Source of the DNA: Nitrospirota bacterium
GTDB lineage: Bacteria > Nitrospirota > Nitrospiria > Nitrospirales > Nitrospiraceae
Assembly: GCA_004296885.1 (NCBI GenBank)
Contig: SCVN01000003.1
Location: 62,001 to 126,000, forward strand
DNA length: 64,000 nucleotides
Direction of reading: 5' to 3'
Part shown: positions 7,494 through 54,432 of the stretch, piece after piece
How the letters are laid out: each line of letters starts with the position of its first letter
Position numbering within the stretch: the first letter of the stretch is position 1
Program-made: the position numbers and the translations under genes
Notes under the pieces: model-generated
What the model was told of the DNA's origin: nothing
Databases searched by the model: none
The model's input: the letters and a program-made list of their open reading frames with translations, nothing else

Positions 7494-7979
7494 ATGTTAC
7501 GTAAAATGAGAGTTTCGAGTTGTGTTATCGTTCTGTTTTCAATTAGTGCTAGTGGTTGCTGGCCGTGGTTTAGCGGTGGGGAGAACCAACAAGGAATTTG
7601 TGGTGACGGTCGACAGCCAGTTGATATTGAACAAGTAGCCCTTAAATACGATCGGATGGGGTTCAGCATTACGGGGAGCTGGCAAGGAATTGCGGTTACT
7701 GTTGGGGTCAAGCCTGAACAAGTTCAAAAAATACAAGAAACCACCCAGAACTGGAATGAATATATCAAGGGAGCCGCATTAGCCCATAATGGTTGCTCAG
7801 GCGCTAGAGATAGATTTGGAAAACTCTTAGAGCGGTATGACGCCCTGAAGAAATCGAAAGAGCTTCTCGTTGAGCTGATCAAGTCGATTCCCGCCAATGA
7901 AAATGCGTCACCTGAATTGCAAACTAGGCTCAAGGAAGGATTTGACAACTATTTCAAGCTGGTAAATCAACCTGTATAA
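7494..7979 (+). CDS. lipoprotein of unknown function, paralogue of the next gene
   Basis: A 161-residue protein with a signal peptide and lipobox SASGC near residue 22, so probably lipid-anchored. The mature part contains GICGDGRQPVDIEQ, then PEQVQKIQETTQNWNEYIKG, ALAHNGCSGARDRF and a helical end. The order and spacing CGD ... PxKxQxxxExTQNxNxY ... ALAHNxCS are repeated in the protein at 8007, which marks the two as paralogues. Two conserved cysteines may form a disulfide. The gene is clearly poorer in GC than its neighbours, has a near-consensus promoter and a GAGGG ribosome-binding site. The family is not recognised. Confidence 0.75.
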   Translation: MLRKMRVSSCVIVLFSISASGCWPWFSGGENQQGICGDGRQPVDIEQVALKYDRMGFSITGSWQGIAVTVGVKPEQVQKIQETTQNWNEYIKGAALAHNGCSGARDRFGKLLERYDALKKSKELLVELIKSIPANENASPELQTRLKEGFDNYFKLVNQPV

Positions 7980-8006
7980 GACAGCCAGACTCTAACGAGG
8001 CAGGCT

Positions 8007-9170
8007 ATGAAACAGAGAATCGCACCTTTAGGGCTAATGGGTGTCCTTATATTGTTGTGTATAACCACGGTCGAAGACCAGGCTGAAGCGGCACTCTTTG
8101 GATCAAATCAAATTTGCGGCGACAGGCTCGAGATCGATACAAGCTATCTCGTTATTAACTACAGCTCCACGAATGTGGCAGTAGAATTACCGTTTTTCCT
8201 TCAGGTAAAAATAGGCCCTCAAAAGCTTCAAATATTGCATGAATCAACTCAGAATTTTAATCAGTACGTGTTAGCCAAGGCGCTTGCTCACAATAGCTGC
8301 TCTTCTCTGAAAGATGAGTTTTCCCATGCAATTGACAGGTACAACAATATCAAAACCACCCACGGTATTTTAACTTCGTTAATTGCACAACTCCACAAAG
8401 ATGGCTTAAGTGGTAGTGAAGAAGTTCAACTTGTCGAGGCTTTTAATAAATACTTCGAGAGCTTAATCCGATTAGTTTATGAAAAAATGCCTGAGCCTGT
8501 TCTGTCTAGGTCAGTATTAGAATTCAAAGGCGGGCGCTTGGTAGATGTATTCACACTGACGAACTTAGGCAATGAAGACCTGTCCTGTGCCCCCAGCTTC
8601 CCTCGGTCTTTCTTAGTTTATAGCCCCGACGGGCGTAAAGTTTCCGCTGCAATTCCACCGAGAGACGAGCGGAGTCTCGTAGCACAACTAGCAGATCTTA
8701 CAGAATTGCCAAAGGACTCTGGCCCTATAGTTGTTCAAAAAGCCAACTTCACCTGTAACAGCAAATTAAATCCGCAGATAAGCTTGGACCTTAAGGTGAT
8801 GAAAGATGACATCAAAAGCTACGTCATAAACGTTGGATTACGTAGCAATTCATCAAATCCATCGGATATCAAGAACTTCATGGTCGAAGGAGTCTTTGAC
8901 GCTGAGCGTTCCGCTATAGCTTCAAAGGTCTCAGATGCGGGAGCGCAACTTGGGTGGGGCCAACTGCAATTGTCAGTTGGCAATACGCAAGCTGCCCTTG
9001 CATCGTTTGATGGGATTAGTTCAGATGCTGGCAAACTCCTGGCAACTACGGTTAATTCTCAGAAAGCCATAGGTAATTGGGGGACCCTGGCACAGGAGAA
9101 GGTAGGAATAAGCGAGTCCGCCAAGCCTTTCAAATTTTTAAACCAAATATCTTCTGAGGCTAAAAAATGA
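8007..9170 (+). CDS. secreted protein of unknown function, larger paralogue
   Basis: A 387-residue protein with an N-terminal signal peptide (cleavage near AEA at about residue 28). Residues 35-130 repeat the layout of the preceding lipoprotein: QICGDRLEID, GPQKLQILHESTQNFNQYV and ALAHNSCSSLKDEF. A second region of about 200 residues follows, beginning SRSVLEFKGGRLVDVFTLTNLGNEDLSC, with the look of a beta-sandwich. The gene is AT-rich compared with its surroundings and starts 27 bases after its partner, so the two form an operon. No enzyme motif is visible. Possible roles are surface or periplasmic binding; this is inference. Confidence 0.75.
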   Translation: MKQRIAPLGLMGVLILLCITTVEDQAEAALFGSNQICGDRLEIDTSYLVINYSSTNVAVELPFFLQVKIGPQKLQILHESTQNFNQYVLAKALAHNSCSSLKDEFSHAIDRYNNIKTTHGILTSLIAQLHKDGLSGSEEVQLVEAFNKYFESLIRLVYEKMPEPVLSRSVLEFKGGRLVDVFTLTNLGNEDLSCAPSFPRSFLVYSPDGRKVSAAIPPRDERSLVAQLADLTELPKDSGPIVVQKANFTCNSKLNPQISLDLKVMKDDIKSYVINVGLRSNSSNPSDIKNFMVEGVFDAERSAIASKVSDAGAQLGWGQLQLSVGNTQAALASFDGISSDAGKLLATTVNSQKAIGNWGTLAQEKVGISESAKPFKFLNQISSEAKK

Positions 9171-36523: not shown

Positions 36524-37210
36524 TCAATGGACGGGCGCTGTGAGGTGGGCGATAAGCCGCTCGGCGATCGAATGCAAGCGGGGCAGATGCGGCTCGGCGC
36601 GGCTGAGCAGGGAGGAAGGGTCCTGGCCGGCCTTGGTCACGTCCTCCGGACATTCCTGGCACAGGGCTTCGATGCCGTCCCGCTGCATTTCCAGGTGGAA
36701 CAGGACTCCGTAGGCTTGCAGCCCGAACCGGAAGGCCTGCAAGGGGAACAAGTAGGAGGAGGCCAGGGGCACCGCCCCGTCGGGCAGGTCGAAGGCCTCG
36801 CCATGCCATTGGAACACCTCGAACGGATCGGGCAACGTCCCGAAGACCGGATCCTCACGGCCCTGGTCGGTCACGTGTATCGGCGTCATGCCGATCTCTA
36901 CCCCGGGCCCCGGTGCGACTTGTGCGCCAAGCGCCTTGGCCAGCAACTGCGCCCCCAGACAGACCCCAAGCACCGGCGTTCCGCTCTCCACCGCTTCCCG
37001 GATGAAGGCCGTCTCCGTCTCAATCCACGGTTCCGGATCGTTGACCGACATGGGGCCGCCCATCACGAGCAGCACATCCCCCGCATCGGGCGGCAAGCCG
37101 ACCTTGGGGACCAGGTGGTTGGAAATGATGAAGTCCTTGCCGACCAGGAGATCGGCAAAGGCCCCGGGCCCTTCGAAGGCGACATGTTGAAGGCAGATCG
37201 CGCGCTTCAT
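36524..37210 (-). CDS. class I glutamine amidotransferase family protein
   Basis: A 228-residue GATase1 domain protein related to the GMP synthase glutaminase. The nucleophile is Cys84 in GVCLGAQLL, the oxyanion region is MGGPMSVND, and WHGEAFDLP and LFHLEM carry the histidine/acid side of the triad. It is not fused to a synthetase domain, so its partner or direct substrate is unknown; some relatives hydrolyse gamma-glutamyl compounds. The start ATG 37210 has GAGGGAAC upstream; an upstream start adds 36 poorly coded residues. Confidence 0.88.
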   Translation of the reverse strand: MKRAICLQHVAFEGPGAFADLLVGKDFIISNHLVPKVGLPPDAGDVLLVMGGPMSVNDPEPWIETETAFIREAVESGTPVLGVCLGAQLLAKALGAQVAPGPGVEIGMTPIHVTDQGREDPVFGTLPDPFEVFQWHGEAFDLPDGAVPLASSYLFPLQAFRFGLQAYGVLFHLEMQRDGIEALCQECPEDVTKAGQDPSSLLSRAEPHLPRLHSIAERLIAHLTAPVH

Positions 37211-37417
37211 GGTTCCCTCAAAAATGAATGAGGGATTACAAGAACACAGGGGATGATGGGCCGTCAATAGCACACGACGTTGTATGAGGTGGACATCTTG
37301 ACCTATTCCACCAGGCAACTAATTGACAGTTCGGTGTAACGGAGCTACCTTCGGTCCAAGTTTTCTAGAAACGCCCCCCTTATCAACTCATCTATCTCAG
37401 GTTCATGTGTATTAGAA

Positions 37418-38266
37418 ATGAGTGACAAAATCGCCGACTACAAGGCCTTGCTTGATTTATACATGCGAGCCGTCCAGACGATGGCTGGGAAGCAGCCCTC
37501 CGTCGAAGAAACCTGGATGGTCGAAGCAGAGCACCTCGCCCAGAAGCTGTTCATGCATCTTGCATCCCTCCTCTATCTTCGTTCTGGAACCCGAATAGAT
37601 GAATTTACTGGTCAAAGAATCCATTTCTTCGACTTCGCTTCATCCGCCGTACTCGCACGGACTGCTTACGAGACCTATTTAACGTTCTATTTCATCTTCG
37701 CTGTTCCCAAAGCTGCGCAGGAACGCTGCTTTCGATGTCAAGTATGGAAGCTTGGTGGACTTTTGGATAGGCAACGCTTTCCTCCGATTTCTCAAGAAGG
37801 AAAGCAACGTCTCGAACAAGAAACGATCCAAATCCAAGAACTTCGCAGCCGAATCGAACAGAGTCCAGCCTTCATTGGACTGCCAGTGAAGCGGCAGAAA
37901 GATGTACTTAAAGGTAGATGGAAGCTCGGGAAAACCTGGAAAGAGATCGCCATGGTCACAGGTTCAAGTAAACGCTATTTTGTCGGGCTCTACGCCTATC
38001 TGTCATCGTATACACACTCAGGTTATCTTAGCGCACTTCAAGTTGGGCAGGCCGAAGGCAAAGATGTACAGTACAAACTAGGCGAGTTACATGTTGGGGT
38101 CGGCCTCTCTCTCATGAGTCATTTTCTCGACGCCTACAGCTCGCTGTTCCCACCGGTTAAGCACCTCATTGATGCTGATTCTGCGAGTAAGAAGTTACTC
38201 GAGAAGTGGCTCATTACCGGGCAAGATATGGATCGCTTATACGACTCTCCTAGTACAATTCGTTGA
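37418..38266 (+). CDS. hypothetical protein, DUF5677-like
   Basis: A 282-residue protein with alpha-helical character. The segment YFVGLYAYLSSYTHSGYLSALQ contains the S-x-x-x-H type helix end seen in DUF5677 and related HEPN-like proteins; this is a weak family match from memory. The rest is helical with hydrophobic stretches (AYETYLTFYFIFAVP) that do not form a clear membrane segment. The gene is AT-rich against its surroundings. A possible promoter, TTGACA at 37323-37328 and TACCTT at 37346-37351, lies 17 bases apart upstream. The function is unknown. Confidence 0.65.
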   Translation: MSDKIADYKALLDLYMRAVQTMAGKQPSVEETWMVEAEHLAQKLFMHLASLLYLRSGTRIDEFTGQRIHFFDFASSAVLARTAYETYLTFYFIFAVPKAAQERCFRCQVWKLGGLLDRQRFPPISQEGKQRLEQETIQIQELRSRIEQSPAFIGLPVKRQKDVLKGRWKLGKTWKEIAMVTGSSKRYFVGLYAYLSSYTHSGYLSALQVGQAEGKDVQYKLGELHVGVGLSLMSHFLDAYSSLFPPVKHLIDADSASKKLLEKWLITGQDMDRLYDSPSTIR

Positions 38267-38368
38267 CAGAGTCTGGGCTAGAGGACTACCCTGGTTCTCA
38301 AATAATATATCCTGGGCTGGCAAGCATCCCTTATATAAGAATACCCATTTCAAGTTCGTCACTTTTTT

Positions 38369-38905
38369 ATGCCTCTTGATCCATTACGCCTTTATCGCCT
38401 TGTGCTGGATGTGGCTCTTCGCGAGAACATTGCTCTTCTCAACGTAGGCGAAGGTATTTTTTTCTTGCCAGAGCGCGCATTTGTCTACAATGTAGGTAAA
38501 GCGATTGCTGTAAATGCAACGTCTCTATTTGGCTCAGACAGGGTCAGGTGGCTGCCTGAAACGAAAGTTGGATCGGGAGGTCCATCGGATTTGGTTTATG
38601 AGGTCGAAGGACAAAAGGGCTTGGTCATTGAATTTAAACGGAGGGGAAATATTGACAGGAATCTACAAGACCTCACTAAATTAGCTGATCTCGACGGTAA
38701 TAAATATCACCGCTTTTTCTGTGTTCTCGTTGATGCTTGGCCAGAAAAATTGCACGAAGATCCGCGTATTACCAATATCGAATCTTGCCTTTCACCGCCT
38801 AAAAAAGTTGCTCGCGTCAAAAGTCAATTCGACTTTTTTTCAACGCTAGATCGTGATTTTGTCAACCAAGTGTGCTGTGTTGTGTGCTTATGGGAGATCA
38901 CATAG
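38369..38905 (+). CDS. hypothetical protein with PD-(D/E)XK nuclease-like motif
   Basis: A 178-residue protein. Asp74 in GGPSDLVYEV is followed 14 residues later by Glu88 and Lys90 in LVIEFKRRG, exactly the D...ExK spacing of PD-(D/E)XK nucleases, with beta-strand-like residues around both. A helix with Asn/Asp/Lys follows (RNLQDLTKLAD). A start 102 bases after the previous gene gives MPLDPLRLYRLV. The AT-rich composition matches its neighbours on both sides. Whether it is an active nuclease is not known. Confidence 0.65.
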   Translation: MPLDPLRLYRLVLDVALRENIALLNVGEGIFFLPERAFVYNVGKAIAVNATSLFGSDRVRWLPETKVGSGGPSDLVYEVEGQKGLVIEFKRRGNIDRNLQDLTKLADLDGNKYHRFFCVLVDAWPEKLHEDPRITNIESCLSPPKKVARVKSQFDFFSTLDRDFVNQVCCVVCLWEIT

Positions 38906-39003
38906 CACGCTTGCGGCATGTCTTTTAATCACTGCTTCTGTCGAAATGCTCCGCAAGCTGCACGCTGGTTAACCTAGGATTTAGGCACACCCGCGGAGAC
39001 ACC

Positions 39004-39963
39004 GTGAAGTGCAAGCATCGCTTCAAGATCTACGGTCGAGTTCGGCCTCAGGCGCTACTTCCAATTCAATCCCGTTTCTATCTATGGGAATTTGAGGCCC
39101 ATGATGGACTGCTAACGCACCTTACGGCGACTGTCAACATTCCCAACCGAGACGACTGGCCAATGACAACCATGAGCCCCAAGCCAGGTGTTGCAGCACT
39201 TGTTAACCTGAAAGCACCTCACTTACCGTTCATTCAGTTCGAGCTCTATACGATTCAGGGGCTCTTGTCTCTATTCGGTGTGCGCTCGATCGATGTCCAG
39301 AAACCCGAACTTGAATGGATAGCCGAGAACGAAGAAGAGCGAGCAGCTCTCCATATTCATTCCTTCAAAAGTGGATATACTGAACCCGATCCACGTTCCA
39401 TGCCCCTATTACCATTCGATCTACTTGCACGCTCCGTCCTCGCAGCCGAAAAAGCTCATGAAATTGAGATCCCCCTCAACTTCTTCCGCCGTTCTCTGGT
39501 CGACATTTTCGAGAAGCAGTATATCGAGGCTATTTATGACCTTTACTTTGTGCTCGAGACGGCATTCGGAAATGGCCAAACAAAGAAGGGTGCAATTCTC
39601 AATGAATTCAAAACTTCTCCTGGCTTGCGCGAAGCAGTGGATAGGGCACTCCGAGACCCTGGTCCCGCCGTCGTCCATGAGCAGCGGGTACGACACGATT
39701 ACGAGTTGAAGTACCGCTGCAAATCCCCCGATGATTACCTACGGCACATTGTGGAACTCCGCGGATTTCTCCATCACCACACCCAGCGTCGCAAGGGCAT
39801 CTGGCACCCTGAGCGCCAAGAGAAATATGAGACGGAAGCACTTGTGCTTCAAGCCGTCGCATTCAACGTAATCTTTCCACTTGCATTGAAATACCTTGAT
39901 GATCAGGAGGTGGTTGCCCTCTATCACCAGAATATCGACCGATTCCAATCTGGCCCGAGTTAG
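39004..39963 (+). CDS. hypothetical protein with HEPN-like C-terminal motif
   Basis: A 319-residue protein beginning with GTG behind GCGGAGA. The N-terminal half is beta-rich; the C-terminal half is helical and contains IVELRGFLHHHTQRRKG, in which Arg253 and His258/His259 fit the RX4-6H motif of HEPN RNases. Many Apea-type or restriction-linked HEPN proteins carry such helices. It is the last of three AT-rich genes on the same strand. The motif is suggestive only, and no known family is recognised. Confidence 0.65.
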   Translation: MKCKHRFKIYGRVRPQALLPIQSRFYLWEFEAHDGLLTHLTATVNIPNRDDWPMTTMSPKPGVAALVNLKAPHLPFIQFELYTIQGLLSLFGVRSIDVQKPELEWIAENEEERAALHIHSFKSGYTEPDPRSMPLLPFDLLARSVLAAEKAHEIEIPLNFFRRSLVDIFEKQYIEAIYDLYFVLETAFGNGQTKKGAILNEFKTSPGLREAVDRALRDPGPAVVHEQRVRHDYELKYRCKSPDDYLRHIVELRGFLHHHTQRRKGIWHPERQEKYETEALVLQAVAFNVIFPLALKYLDDQEVVALYHQNIDRFQSGPS

Positions 39964-40031
39964 ATCCACATCTAACAAGACGCCAGCCCCACTCGAGTCC
40001 GAGCAGGGGTTTCGTCATACCTATCAGGCTG

Positions 40032-40991
40032 CTACGGAATCAACACGATCTTGCCGTATGCTCCCGCCTCCATCACCGCCTTGTGGGCCTGCGGAGCCTC
40101 GGCCAGCGGCAACTCCCGTCCCGTGACCGGCCGCAAGGTGTCGTTCTCCAGCCCGGCCACCAGAGCCGCATGGATGCTCGCGGTTTCCGAAGGCGTCGCA
40201 TTGAAGAGGACCATGCCGAGGACGGTGGCATCACGCACCATGAGTTCCCGCGGGCTGACCTCGACCGAGCCCCGGCTCCCGATCACGACCACACGGCCGC
40301 CCGGCGCCATGATGGTCAGGTCCTTCCCCAGATTGACGTTGGCCAACATCTCCAGGACGACGTCCACCCCACGCCCATCCGAGAGTCCGATCACCTGGGC
40401 CAGGTAGTCCGGCTTCCGATGGTCCAACACATGGTGGGCGCCCTGCTCCTTAACGAGCGCCAGCCCCCGGTCGGACCCGGCGGTGCCGATCACGATCAGG
40501 CCCGCGGCCCGCGCAATCTGCACGGCGGCCACTCCGACCCCGCCGCTCGCGCCGTGGACGAGGACGACCTCTCCGCCTTTGGCCCGCGCTTTCTGAAACA
40601 ACGAGCGGTAGGCCGTCGCATAGGGCACATTCATCCCGGCCCCTTGCGCGAAGGTCACCTTGTCCGGGAGCCGATGTACCTGCTCGACCTTGCAGAGGGT
40701 TTTATCCGCATAGGCGCCGGTGAGGGTGCCCGACGTATAGACACGATCGCCCGCCTTGAAGACCTTTACGCCCACGCCGACCGATTCCACCGTCCCCGCC
40801 GCGTCCAGGCCCGGCGTATAGGGCATCGGCAGCTTCCCGTAGGAGCCGGCCCGGATGTAGGTGTCTACGGGATTCACGCCGGCGGCCTTGACCCGTACGA
40901 GCACTTCGCCGGGACCCGGCGATGGATCCGGCACGGTTTCCAGCTTCATGACGTCCGGTTCGCCGAATTGATGGACTCTGATCGCCTTCAT
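40032..40991 (-). CDS. NADPH:quinone reductase / zinc-less alcohol dehydrogenase family
   Basis: A 319-residue medium-chain reductase of the quinone oxidoreductase branch. The NADP-binding loop is HGASGGVGVAAVQIA near residue 146, and the N-terminal GroES-like part has GVNPVDTYIRAG. Structural and catalytic zinc ligands are absent, as usual for Qor-type enzymes. The ATG at 40991 has GAGGAGG upstream. It follows an NmrA-like gene by 40 bases on the same strand; the two could protect against quinones or electrophiles. Confidence 0.9.
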   Translation of the reverse strand: MKAIRVHQFGEPDVMKLETVPDPSPGPGEVLVRVKAAGVNPVDTYIRAGSYGKLPMPYTPGLDAAGTVESVGVGVKVFKAGDRVYTSGTLTGAYADKTLCKVEQVHRLPDKVTFAQGAGMNVPYATAYRSLFQKARAKGGEVVLVHGASGGVGVAAVQIARAAGLIVIGTAGSDRGLALVKEQGAHHVLDHRKPDYLAQVIGLSDGRGVDVVLEMLANVNLGKDLTIMAPGGRVVVIGSRGSVEVSPRELMVRDATVLGMVLFNATPSETASIHAALVAGLENDTLRPVTGRELPLAEAPQAHKAVMEAGAYGKIVLIP

Positions 40992-41031
40992 GCGTTCCTC
41001 CTCGGGCTTCGGTCGGGGGCGTTTCCGATGA

Positions 41032-41889
41032 TTATTCCCTGGCCCAGTCGGCCGAAGCAATCACTTCCGTGAATTTCGTCAGCGGGATGCCGTACCTCCG
41101 CTCAAGTTCCTCGATGTCCCCCTGATAGCCTTGTTCGTTGAACCACCGGAACATCGCGGCCAAATCGTCCCCGAAGGCGGCCGGAGCCTGGTCGTCCGGG
41201 ACTTGTTGGAACCGGATGGGGCGCCCCATGGTGCGCGACAGGTACGTCACCACCTCGATCATGGTCAGTTCGTCTCCCGCCAGTTCGATCGCCTGGCCGA
41301 GAAAGTCATCGGGCCGCATGAAGGCGGCCGCCCCGAACTCGCCGATGTCCTGGAGCGCAATCATCTGCAGCTTCCGGTCGGGTCTCATCGGGAGCGCCAG
41401 CGTGCCTTGCAGGATGAAGGGGCGGCAAAAGGTGCCGAAGTTTTCCATGAACCAGACGGGCCGGAGAATCGTGGCGGGGAGATCGATCCTTTGGATGTGC
41501 TGCTCCACCTGCCACTTGGTGTCGAAATGAGGAATGCCGGTGTTGCGCTCGGCCCCGCCGACCGAGGTATAGACATAGTGTCGCACCCCGGCCTGCTTGG
41601 CCAGATCGGCCAGCATCGTGCCTTGCGCAACCTCTTCGTCCATCCCGGCTTCGAAGGGCGTGGACATGGCGAACACGCCCTGCACCCCCTGCAGCGCCGC
41701 CCGGAGCGAAGCCGAATCGGTGAGATCGCCCTGCGCCACCTCGGCGCCTTCCTGCACCAGCCAGGCCGCTTTGGCCGGATTGCGGGTGAGGGCGCGGATC
41801 TTCTGGCCTCGGCGCAACAGGCTCCTGGCCACCGCCCCTCCCTGTTGTCCCGTGGCACCCGTGACCAAAATGATCTGCGTTTCGCTCAT
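41032..41889 (-). CDS. NmrA-like NAD(P)-binding protein
   Basis: A 285-residue atypical SDR with the dinucleotide motif VTGATGQQGG at about residues 8-17 and the second segment RALTRNPAKAAWL. No YxxxK dyad is placed as in catalytic SDRs, consistent with the NmrA/HSCARG group, which includes redox sensors and reductases. It ends 40 bases before the quinone reductase gene on the same strand. The ATG follows GGAGGAAGCCC. The substrate, if any, is unknown. Confidence 0.85.
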   Translation of the reverse strand: MSETQIILVTGATGQQGGAVARSLLRRGQKIRALTRNPAKAAWLVQEGAEVAQGDLTDSASLRAALQGVQGVFAMSTPFEAGMDEEVAQGTMLADLAKQAGVRHYVYTSVGGAERNTGIPHFDTKWQVEQHIQRIDLPATILRPVWFMENFGTFCRPFILQGTLALPMRPDRKLQMIALQDIGEFGAAAFMRPDDFLGQAIELAGDELTMIEVVTYLSRTMGRPIRFQQVPDDQAPAAFGDDLAAMFRWFNEQGYQGDIEELERRYGIPLTKFTEVIASADWARE

Positions 41890-52872: not shown

Positions 52873-53577
52873 TCAGGGATTCCGATGAGAGTTTTGTTTG
52901 CGATCAATGATGAGCAGGGCTTCGTGTTCTTGAGGAAGATTCCTCAAAGAAGCCCACCAAGGCGGGGGCTCGCTAGGATGAGGTGGCCTCCAATCTCTCG
53001 TGTCCTCGCTTCTCACCGGTGTAAACCTTGTCTTTACCAAGAGGCGAGAGGGATTGAAGTCCGCGCCTCGTAAGTCGGGGCAGTGCGGACGAATTTGTTC
53101 GATAATTGAGATGATTGCCTGCGGCGGATGACATTCGCCCAAGTAGGGTACTCCTCCGACGGCTCGGATAATCACCAGTGCCGCGATCGGGTTCGGAGTT
53201 GCACAGCCAATCCACGGGTCATCAGAGACGACCGCGAGAAACTGCGTGACAAGCCTGGTAGCAATGCCTCTCCGGCGATGGTCCGGCAGCACCGCAAGAG
53301 AATCGATCCATCCGACCGTCCCATTCTGTGCTCTGATCTCCCTGGCATAAAGATATCCCGTAAAATTGTTCTTGGTGTCCTGAGCAACGAACACATGACT
53401 TGTGCTCAGTAGGCGCTCTTTGGTCGTTCTTGGCCCGAGCCTATACGGTTCATTATTGCGAGGGTTTGTCCCGAAGCTGTGGCTGAACACGTAGGAGATA
53501 CCTTCCACGACTCCTTCAACATTTGCAGCTTCTGGTCCAGGGAAATAATGGAAGCGGTAGGCGTCAGGTTGGCTCAT
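52873..53577 (-). CDS. GNAT-family acetyltransferase (first of tandem pair)
   Basis: A 234-residue protein with an N-terminal GNAT domain: the acetyl-CoA loop DHRRRGIATRLV (R/Q-x-x-G-x-A) after SLAVLP, near residue 105. The second half contains the unusual block CATPNPIAALVIIRAVGG, then CPDLRGADFNP, that is shared with the next gene. The acceptor substrate is unknown. The G+C is lower than in the surrounding genome. Confidence 0.85.
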   Translation of the reverse strand: MSQPDAYRFHYFPGPEAANVEGVVEGISYVFSHSFGTNPRNNEPYRLGPRTTKERLLSTSHVFVAQDTKNNFTGYLYAREIRAQNGTVGWIDSLAVLPDHRRRGIATRLVTQFLAVVSDDPWIGCATPNPIAALVIIRAVGGVPYLGECHPPQAIISIIEQIRPHCPDLRGADFNPSRLLVKTRFTPVRSEDTRDWRPPHPSEPPPWWASLRNLPQEHEALLIIDRKQNSHRNP

Positions 53578-53634
53578 GGGTGCCGACTTCTACTTTGAAG
53601 AAACCGCGAGCGAGAACGCGAAGGTTACGTGAGC

Positions 53635-54432
53635 TTAGGACTCAATAAGAAGGAGGGCTTCAAACTCATTGGGAAGGTGCTGTATCCAGGCCCACCAATG
53701 AGGCGGCGCTTGCGGTGTTCGTGGACTCCAATCGCGTTCATCAGATCGAGACAGAGGACTAAACCCCGTTTTTATCGTCAGCGTCCGTTCATCAATCGAA
53801 CAACCGCGCAGATCAAAGCAATTCTGCTTGATTTCCTTGAGAAGTCTGCGCAAGTGATGGGGAGGATCGCTTTGCCCAACATACAATTTGCCTGGTACCA
53901 CTCGACTGACTATCAACGCTGCAATTGGGTTTGGAGTCGCGCAGCCAAAGCGTGGCGCATTCTTAGTGGCTTGCCAGAAACGCTTCACCATCGCGGTGGC
54001 AATACCACGCCGCCGGTAAAGCGGAAGAACCGCCATGGACTCAATCCATGCGATTCTTCCCTGAGAAGACGTGATCTCCTTCCCAAAAAGATAGCCGACG
54101 CCGGATTGTTCGTCACCTGCCACAAAGAGATGGTCTGTTTCCTGCAATCTCTCTGATACGGATTTAGGACCGAGACGATACGGCCTTCCGTCTGGGCGAT
54201 ACCCGAAGCTCTCATTAAAAATGTGGGAGACTAATTTGACGAGCTGAGGATTAGTAGCCGCAATAGGAGCTGCGTACGCCTGTATGCCGGCTGCTGAGGC
54301 CTCAGCAGCGTCCGTCAGAACAGCGCCTAGCTCGGATTGAAGGAGAATATCTTCGGGCGTCCCAGTCGGCAGCGAATCTTGAGACTGAATAGCCCCGACA
54401 CCTGCAAAATGGCTTTGAGAGAATAGGTCCAT
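53635..54432 (-). CDS. GNAT-family acetyltransferase (second of tandem pair)
   Basis: A 265-residue paralogue of the next gene downstream on the minus strand. It has the same blocks in the same order: FGYRPDGRPYRLGPKSVSERL, then VLPLYRRRGIATAMV (acetyl-CoA loop), CATPNPIAALIVSRVVPG, CFDLRGCSIDERTL and PPHWWAWIQHLPNEFEALLLI. The first 40 residues are extra. The pair clearly arose by duplication. The C-terminal region beyond GNAT is unlike any I recognise. Confidence 0.85.
   Translation of the reverse strand: MDLFSQSHFAGVGAIQSQDSLPTGTPEDILLQSELGAVLTDAAEASAAGIQAYAAPIAATNPQLVKLVSHIFNESFGYRPDGRPYRLGPKSVSERLQETDHLFVAGDEQSGVGYLFGKEITSSQGRIAWIESMAVLPLYRRRGIATAMVKRFWQATKNAPRFGCATPNPIAALIVSRVVPGKLYVGQSDPPHHLRRLLKEIKQNCFDLRGCSIDERTLTIKTGFSPLSRSDERDWSPRTPQAPPHWWAWIQHLPNEFEALLLIES

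Follow-up and report, generated by a model that had tools for sequence, protein, structure and literature searches.

An AT-rich segment at a variable chromosomal site carries a predicted two-domain HEPN ribonuclease beside a DUF5677 protein and an orphan protein with a PD-(D/E)XK-like motif

The window, by which we mean the whole stretch of 64,000 nucleotides that was analysed, contains a foreign-looking segment of 2.75 kb that holds three genes; a glutamine-amidotransferase-like gene borders the insertion on the left, and a quinone-oxidoreductase-type gene on the right. The features are as follows.

36524 to 37228, minus strand: left flanking host gene, class-I glutamine amidotransferase-like; it lies in DNA that is 87-89% identical in two same-genus genomes (G001 and G003)
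37271 to 40025, no strand: foreign-looking AT-rich segment, GC 0.485
37418 to 38266, plus strand: gene 1, a DUF5677 protein of 282 aa
38369 to 38905, plus strand: gene 2, an orphan protein of 178 aa with a PD-(D/E)XK-like motif (D74, E88, K90)
39004 to 39963, plus strand: gene 3, a protein of 319 aa with an N-terminal alpha+beta domain (1-117) and a predicted C-terminal HEPN domain (about 147-300)
39760 to 39777, plus strand: R-x4-H motif of gene 3, the predicted RNase active site, from R253 to H258
40032 to 41060, minus strand: right flanking host gene, quinone oxidoreductase-type; it lies in DNA that is 89-91% identical in same-genus genomes

All three genes are intact, full-length frames on one strand, separated by gaps of about 100 bp, and gene 3 begins with GTG. 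Counted over 1-kb intervals, the GC content is 0.46-0.51 across 37-40 kb versus 0.60-0.66 in the surrounding DNA, and the individual values are 0.488 for gene 1, 0.443 for gene 2, and 0.507 for gene 3. The GC content of third codon positions (GC3) is 0.51, 0.40, and 0.53, respectively, against 0.81-0.83 in four flanking genes, and this gap indicates that the three genes do not share the codon use of the host. A preceding sequence-only reading of this DNA had described three same-strand genes poorer in GC than their neighbours, with which the coordinates, strand, GC, and GC3 all agree. Elsewhere in the window, the DNA is also AT-rich at positions 7494-9170 (GC 0.43-0.47). This patch contains a tandem pair of genes for proteins of 161 and 387 aa, which resemble each other in their N-terminal parts (ICGD..., TQN.N.Y...ALAHN.CS), both have signal-like starts, and gave no Pfam match. 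Positions 52876-54432 form a lower-GC patch (0.53-0.56) that carries two tandem GNAT acetyltransferase paralogues on the minus strand with long stretches in common.

The site of the segment was compared with three further genomes of the same genus (G001, G002, and G003). The flanks are joined in G003, with about 93 bp between the aligned ends (window positions 37211 and 40025), while the same site in G001 and G002 is occupied by about 2-2.4 kb of host-like DNA with GC 0.60-0.61, in which genes for two proteins were recognized when the translations were read by eye: a putative lipase of the alpha/beta hydrolase type, with AHSMGG, and a protein that resembles carbonic anhydrase. The site is a variable spot at which related genomes carry different genes or none, and the segment in the window represents an acquired alternative. 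Base composition and the empty site in a same-genus genome together place the term "foreign island" beyond chance, in line with the foreign look noted in the sequence-only reading, and the segment is cargo gained by horizontal transfer. Neither an integrase nor a tRNA nor clear end repeats were found to mark it; at its two ends, candidate promoters, terminators, and repeats were not above chance, and no clear direct repeats were seen. Homologous recombination in the conserved flanks would be a conceivable way of exchange, but this is a guess. As for the alternative occupants of this chromosomal spot in the two same-genus genomes (L028 3140-5531 and L029 8519-10585), the lipase-like frame is broken in L029 and the carbonic-anhydrase-like frame appears to be broken in L028.

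A profile search with gene 3 found seven relatives in proteobacterial and Chloracidobacterium records, which align over most of its length with 23-45% identity. A second rhizobial copy exists on a Sinorhizobium plasmid, and a broken copy with a stop exists in a genome of the same order. R253, G254, H258, E185, and K194 are invariant in the alignment of eight homologues. The AF2 model built from this eight-sequence alignment is of good confidence (pLDDT 83.5, pTM 0.79) and predicts an alpha+beta domain at residues 1-117, followed by a helical domain with helices at 151-169, 173-188, 242-257, and 269-298, the last of which is the long helix 4. In the model, the R253/H258 motif spans the point where helix 3 (242-257) gives way to the following loop, and the invariant acidic residue E185 lies in helix 2 (173-188), after which comes an insert. 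In the HEPN layout published by Anantharaman et al. 2013 (PMC3710099), R-x4-6-H is placed at the end of helix 3 and the start of the loop to helix 4, and helix 2 bears an acidic residue; the helix order, the place of the motif, and the helix-2 acid of gene 3 correspond to this layout. The residue that follows the motif arginine is typically, although not universally, a polar one (N, D, or H) in HEPN RNases (PMC3710099), instead of which gene 3 has the invariant Gly254. Arg253 and His258 are present as the sequence-only reading had pointed out, but they are not inside a helix as it had supposed.

A Foldseek search with the gene 3 model gave no significant match. When its 1000 top chains were realigned with a second aligner, the five highest structures were 2hsb (Z 8.1), 1ufb (7.4), 3o10 (7.0), 1o3u (6.9), and 2q00 (5.9), which superimpose with rmsd of 3.7-5.2 over 96-114 residues, the chains being 120-137 residues long; the best unrelated row had a Z of 5.0, and the KEN RNase domain of IRE1 had 4.0. 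Three of the five are titled as HEPN proteins, and 1ufb and 2q00, whose titles do not contain the term, are HEPN proteins as well. For a helical bundle, a Z of about 8 would alone be weak evidence, since it can reflect an arrangement of helices that is widespread, and the HEPN assignment is made because the top rows agree with one another, cover nearly the whole domain, and are accompanied by a conserved motif at the published position. The view that the gene 3 protein consists of two domains, of which the C-terminal one is a HEPN domain, is therefore well supported by the predicted fold and the conserved R253 and H258, and the HEPN likeness proposed from the motif is borne out.

The place of gene 3 among named families is less direct. 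PDB sequence searches with genes 2 and 3 and with both family profiles yielded nothing meaningful, and gene 3 itself matches neither Pfam MauJ (PF17419) nor HEPN_Apea (PF18739). Its homologue L016, which is 30% identical to gene 3, scores above the MauJ cut-off with its HEPN region (E 2.1e-6) and shows a weak similarity to HEPN_Apea (E 0.12) below the cut-off. These matches suggest that MauJ, too, may be a family of HEPN proteins. L016 is, however, the one member of eight in the gene 3 family that matches MauJ, and gene 3 has no genes for methylamine utilisation in its vicinity. Like gene 3, ApeA is a one-gene protein in which an N-terminal domain precedes a HEPN domain that bears R-x4-6-H (PMC3710099). 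Gene 3 differs from ApeA in having no match to the HEPN_Apea profile and in its N-terminal domain, which is alpha+beta and about 117 aa long, whereas ApeA-NTD1 is described as mostly beta and about 300 aa long.

The surroundings of the gene 3 relatives are mixed. The Sinorhizobium homologue lies about 0.2-0.5 kb, depending on the choice of start codon, from lmuA (E 1.6e-204), a Lamassu gene; others neighbour a PLD-type nuclease (L011), a PIN protein (L016), or a Fic protein (L015), one lies within a phage-like element (L013), and two have ordinary neighbours (L012 and L014). In G101, reading by eye showed a decayed copy of gene 3 that has remnants of a transposase and a PIN gene of VapC-like appearance in its vicinity. 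Searches of phage collections with all three proteins of the segment found no relatives.

Gene 1 had been said to resemble DUF5677, a Pfam family of unknown function, and it indeed scores above the family cut-off (PF18928; E 4e-8, 33.9 bits versus 27.1). Its homologues share 27-33% identity over most of the length, and its nearer relatives are found by Lamassu and Septu genes and in a prophage. On a Comamonas plasmid, the homologue is located between LmuA/LmuB of Lamassu (E 2e-43 and 1e-87) and PtuA/PtuB of Septu (E 5e-112 and 5e-63); on a Pantoea plasmid, it adjoins phage replication P genes and an integrase; and on an IMG/VR prophage contig (L033 3229-4842), it has an umuC-like gene on one side and tail genes on the other. 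In a genome of the same phylum (G224), a relative of gene 1 is split, with IstA/IstB-like genes, read by eye, in between. A profile-profile comparison of genes 1 and 3, which asked if DUF5677 is a HEPN family, detected no relation (probability 0.3%), and a relation is still conceivable. The single match of gene 1 among PADLOC models is a weak one to REase_II (E 0.026, 11.8 bits).

Two of these loci are worth describing in their own right. The region at 574-9929 of L007, from the Comamonas endophytica plasmid NZ_CP106883.1, is a compact defence island that contains a HEPN/Toprim-associated protein, Lamassu (LmuA, a middle component, and LmuB), the DUF5677 protein, and Septu (PtuA and PtuB). On the prophage contig L033, the DUF5677 gene adjoins an uncharacterised protein of 257 aa that looks HNH-like by eye (CYMCDEPATSVEHVPPKCIF) and gave no Pfam match; the two genes are a possible pair of prophage cargo.

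Gene 2 probably is a real gene, given its 178-aa frame, 44% GC, and uneven GC at the three codon positions (0.57/0.36/0.40). D74, E88, and K90 are present with the spacing that had led to the proposal of a PD-(D/E)XK protein, and the stretch PSDLVYEVEGQKGLVIEFK resembles this motif, D-x(n)-(D/E)-x-K in a context of hydrophobic strands. The pattern PSDLV...LVIEFK has the usual look of PD-(D/E)XK nucleases, and a regular expression that includes the hydrophobic context matches 0.6% of composition shuffles of gene 2. Among several hundred proteins compared, the expression matched, besides copies of gene 2, only the RmuC of the window, which we take to be a PD-(D/E)XK-type protein itself. Because the expression was composed after inspection of the gene 2 sequence, this result is supportive and not proof. 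In difference from such nucleases, gene 2 has neither a profile match nor a homologue: Pfam, PADLOC, NCBIfam, and PHROGs gave nothing meaningful, searches of plasmids, phages, and viral contigs found no homologue, and no relative turned up in a close-relative scan of 84,980 species genomes or in 395 genomes of the phylum. A single-sequence AlphaFold model of gene 2 had a pLDDT of 32.9 and is useless as evidence of fold. The identification of gene 2 as a PD-(D/E)XK nuclease is made from the motif and is plausible. A weak match to gene 2 in G059 overlaps a long radA-like frame and was taken as chance; another weak match occurs in G014.

The sequence-only reading had proposed that the three genes constitute one defence module, in which a DUF5677 protein, a nuclease, and an RNase would act jointly. 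Such a module would be consistent with their position on one strand, their common AT-rich composition, and the short distances between them, but each fetched locus was searched with each protein, and at none of the loci with a gene 3 relative (about nine) or a gene 1 relative (four) did the search detect a protein related to either of the other two. For the fourth gene 1 locus, L033, this was judged by eye from the listed frames. In this small sample, therefore, relatives of genes 1 and 3 are never neighbours, a pattern that the reading itself had named as speaking against joint function, and gene 2 has no detectable relatives in the collections searched. The gaps of about 100 bp, which are too wide for translational coupling, and the differing GC3 values also agree with separate cargo. 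A joint module is for these reasons quite improbable, and the case shows that genes strung together in a short foreign-looking stretch do not have to make up a single system. Given the absence of co-occurrence, genes 1 and 2 are most likely independent cargo rather than subunits of one machine.

What remains of the earlier proposal is a role in defence as such, for which the neighbours of the relatives (Lamassu, Septu, and prophage genes) give circumstantial support. These contexts of genes 1 and 3, which comprise the few neighbourhoods of about nine and four loci and have no chance control, point to defence cargo. According to PADLOC, none of the genes in the window is a component of Lamassu or Septu, although a relative of gene 3 in Sinorhizobium and one of gene 1 in Comamonas neighbour such systems, and no PADLOC model matches the three proteins apart from the weak similarity of gene 1 mentioned above. 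In the literature collection that was searched, no link of DUF5677 or MauJ to defence was found.

The reading that we favour, to which we give about an even chance, is that the segment is independent mobile cargo in which gene 3 acts as a stand-alone HEPN RNase of the ApeA-like or abortive-infection kind. If gene 3 works like ApeA or Abi HEPN proteins, as seems most likely, it would be inactive in healthy cells, and its N-terminal alpha+beta domain would probably sense or regulate. On phage infection, the protein would then act as a metal-independent endoribonuclease on RNA of the host or the phage, and the cleavage would lead to arrest or death of the cell and thereby stop phage multiplication. 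Genes 1 and 2 would most likely be independent cargo of the same type, as the absence of co-occurrence suggests. In this scheme we infer the RNase activity, the phage trigger, the cell arrest, and the nuclease nature of gene 2.

Since HEPN domains are common toxins (PMC3710099), gene 3 might instead be a member of a toxin-antitoxin or stress-response pair, or a housekeeping RNA-processing factor, that serves maintenance of a plasmid or island and is not directed against phages. Several of its homologues lie near PIN or Fic genes, and the surroundings of the decayed copy in G101 fit this explanation as well. The homologues do not, however, share a conserved neighbour that resembles an antitoxin, and gene 3 is larger than typical HEPN toxins owing to its own N-terminal domain, so we regard a maintenance role as unlikely, if far from negligible. 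The genes might also have arrived by horizontal transfer and be neutral or decaying, without a function at present: the distribution of the families is very patchy, with each found in 1-2 of about 150-400 genomes of the phylum, and the copies in the phylum are broken, the gene 3 relative by a stop and the gene 1 relative by the split around IstA/IstB-like genes. The intactness of all three genes in the window and the retention of the active-site residues in gene 3 argue against such inertness, which we consider quite improbable.

Gene 3 and its relatives, eight of which were aligned, come from proteobacterial, Chloracidobacterium, and same-phylum genomes, and several have Lamassu genes or other genes of defence or toxin type as neighbours. 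It is tentatively proposed, as less likely than not, that they constitute an undescribed family of single-gene abortive-infection proteins in which an alpha+beta sensor is joined to a MauJ/ApeA-like HEPN RNase. The DUF5677 gene within the Comamonas defence island may also merit testing. Gene 3 is a concrete one-gene RNase candidate that is unnamed by Pfam or PADLOC and has defined, predicted active-site residues, and its family hints that MauJ, an obscure family, might consist of HEPN RNases.
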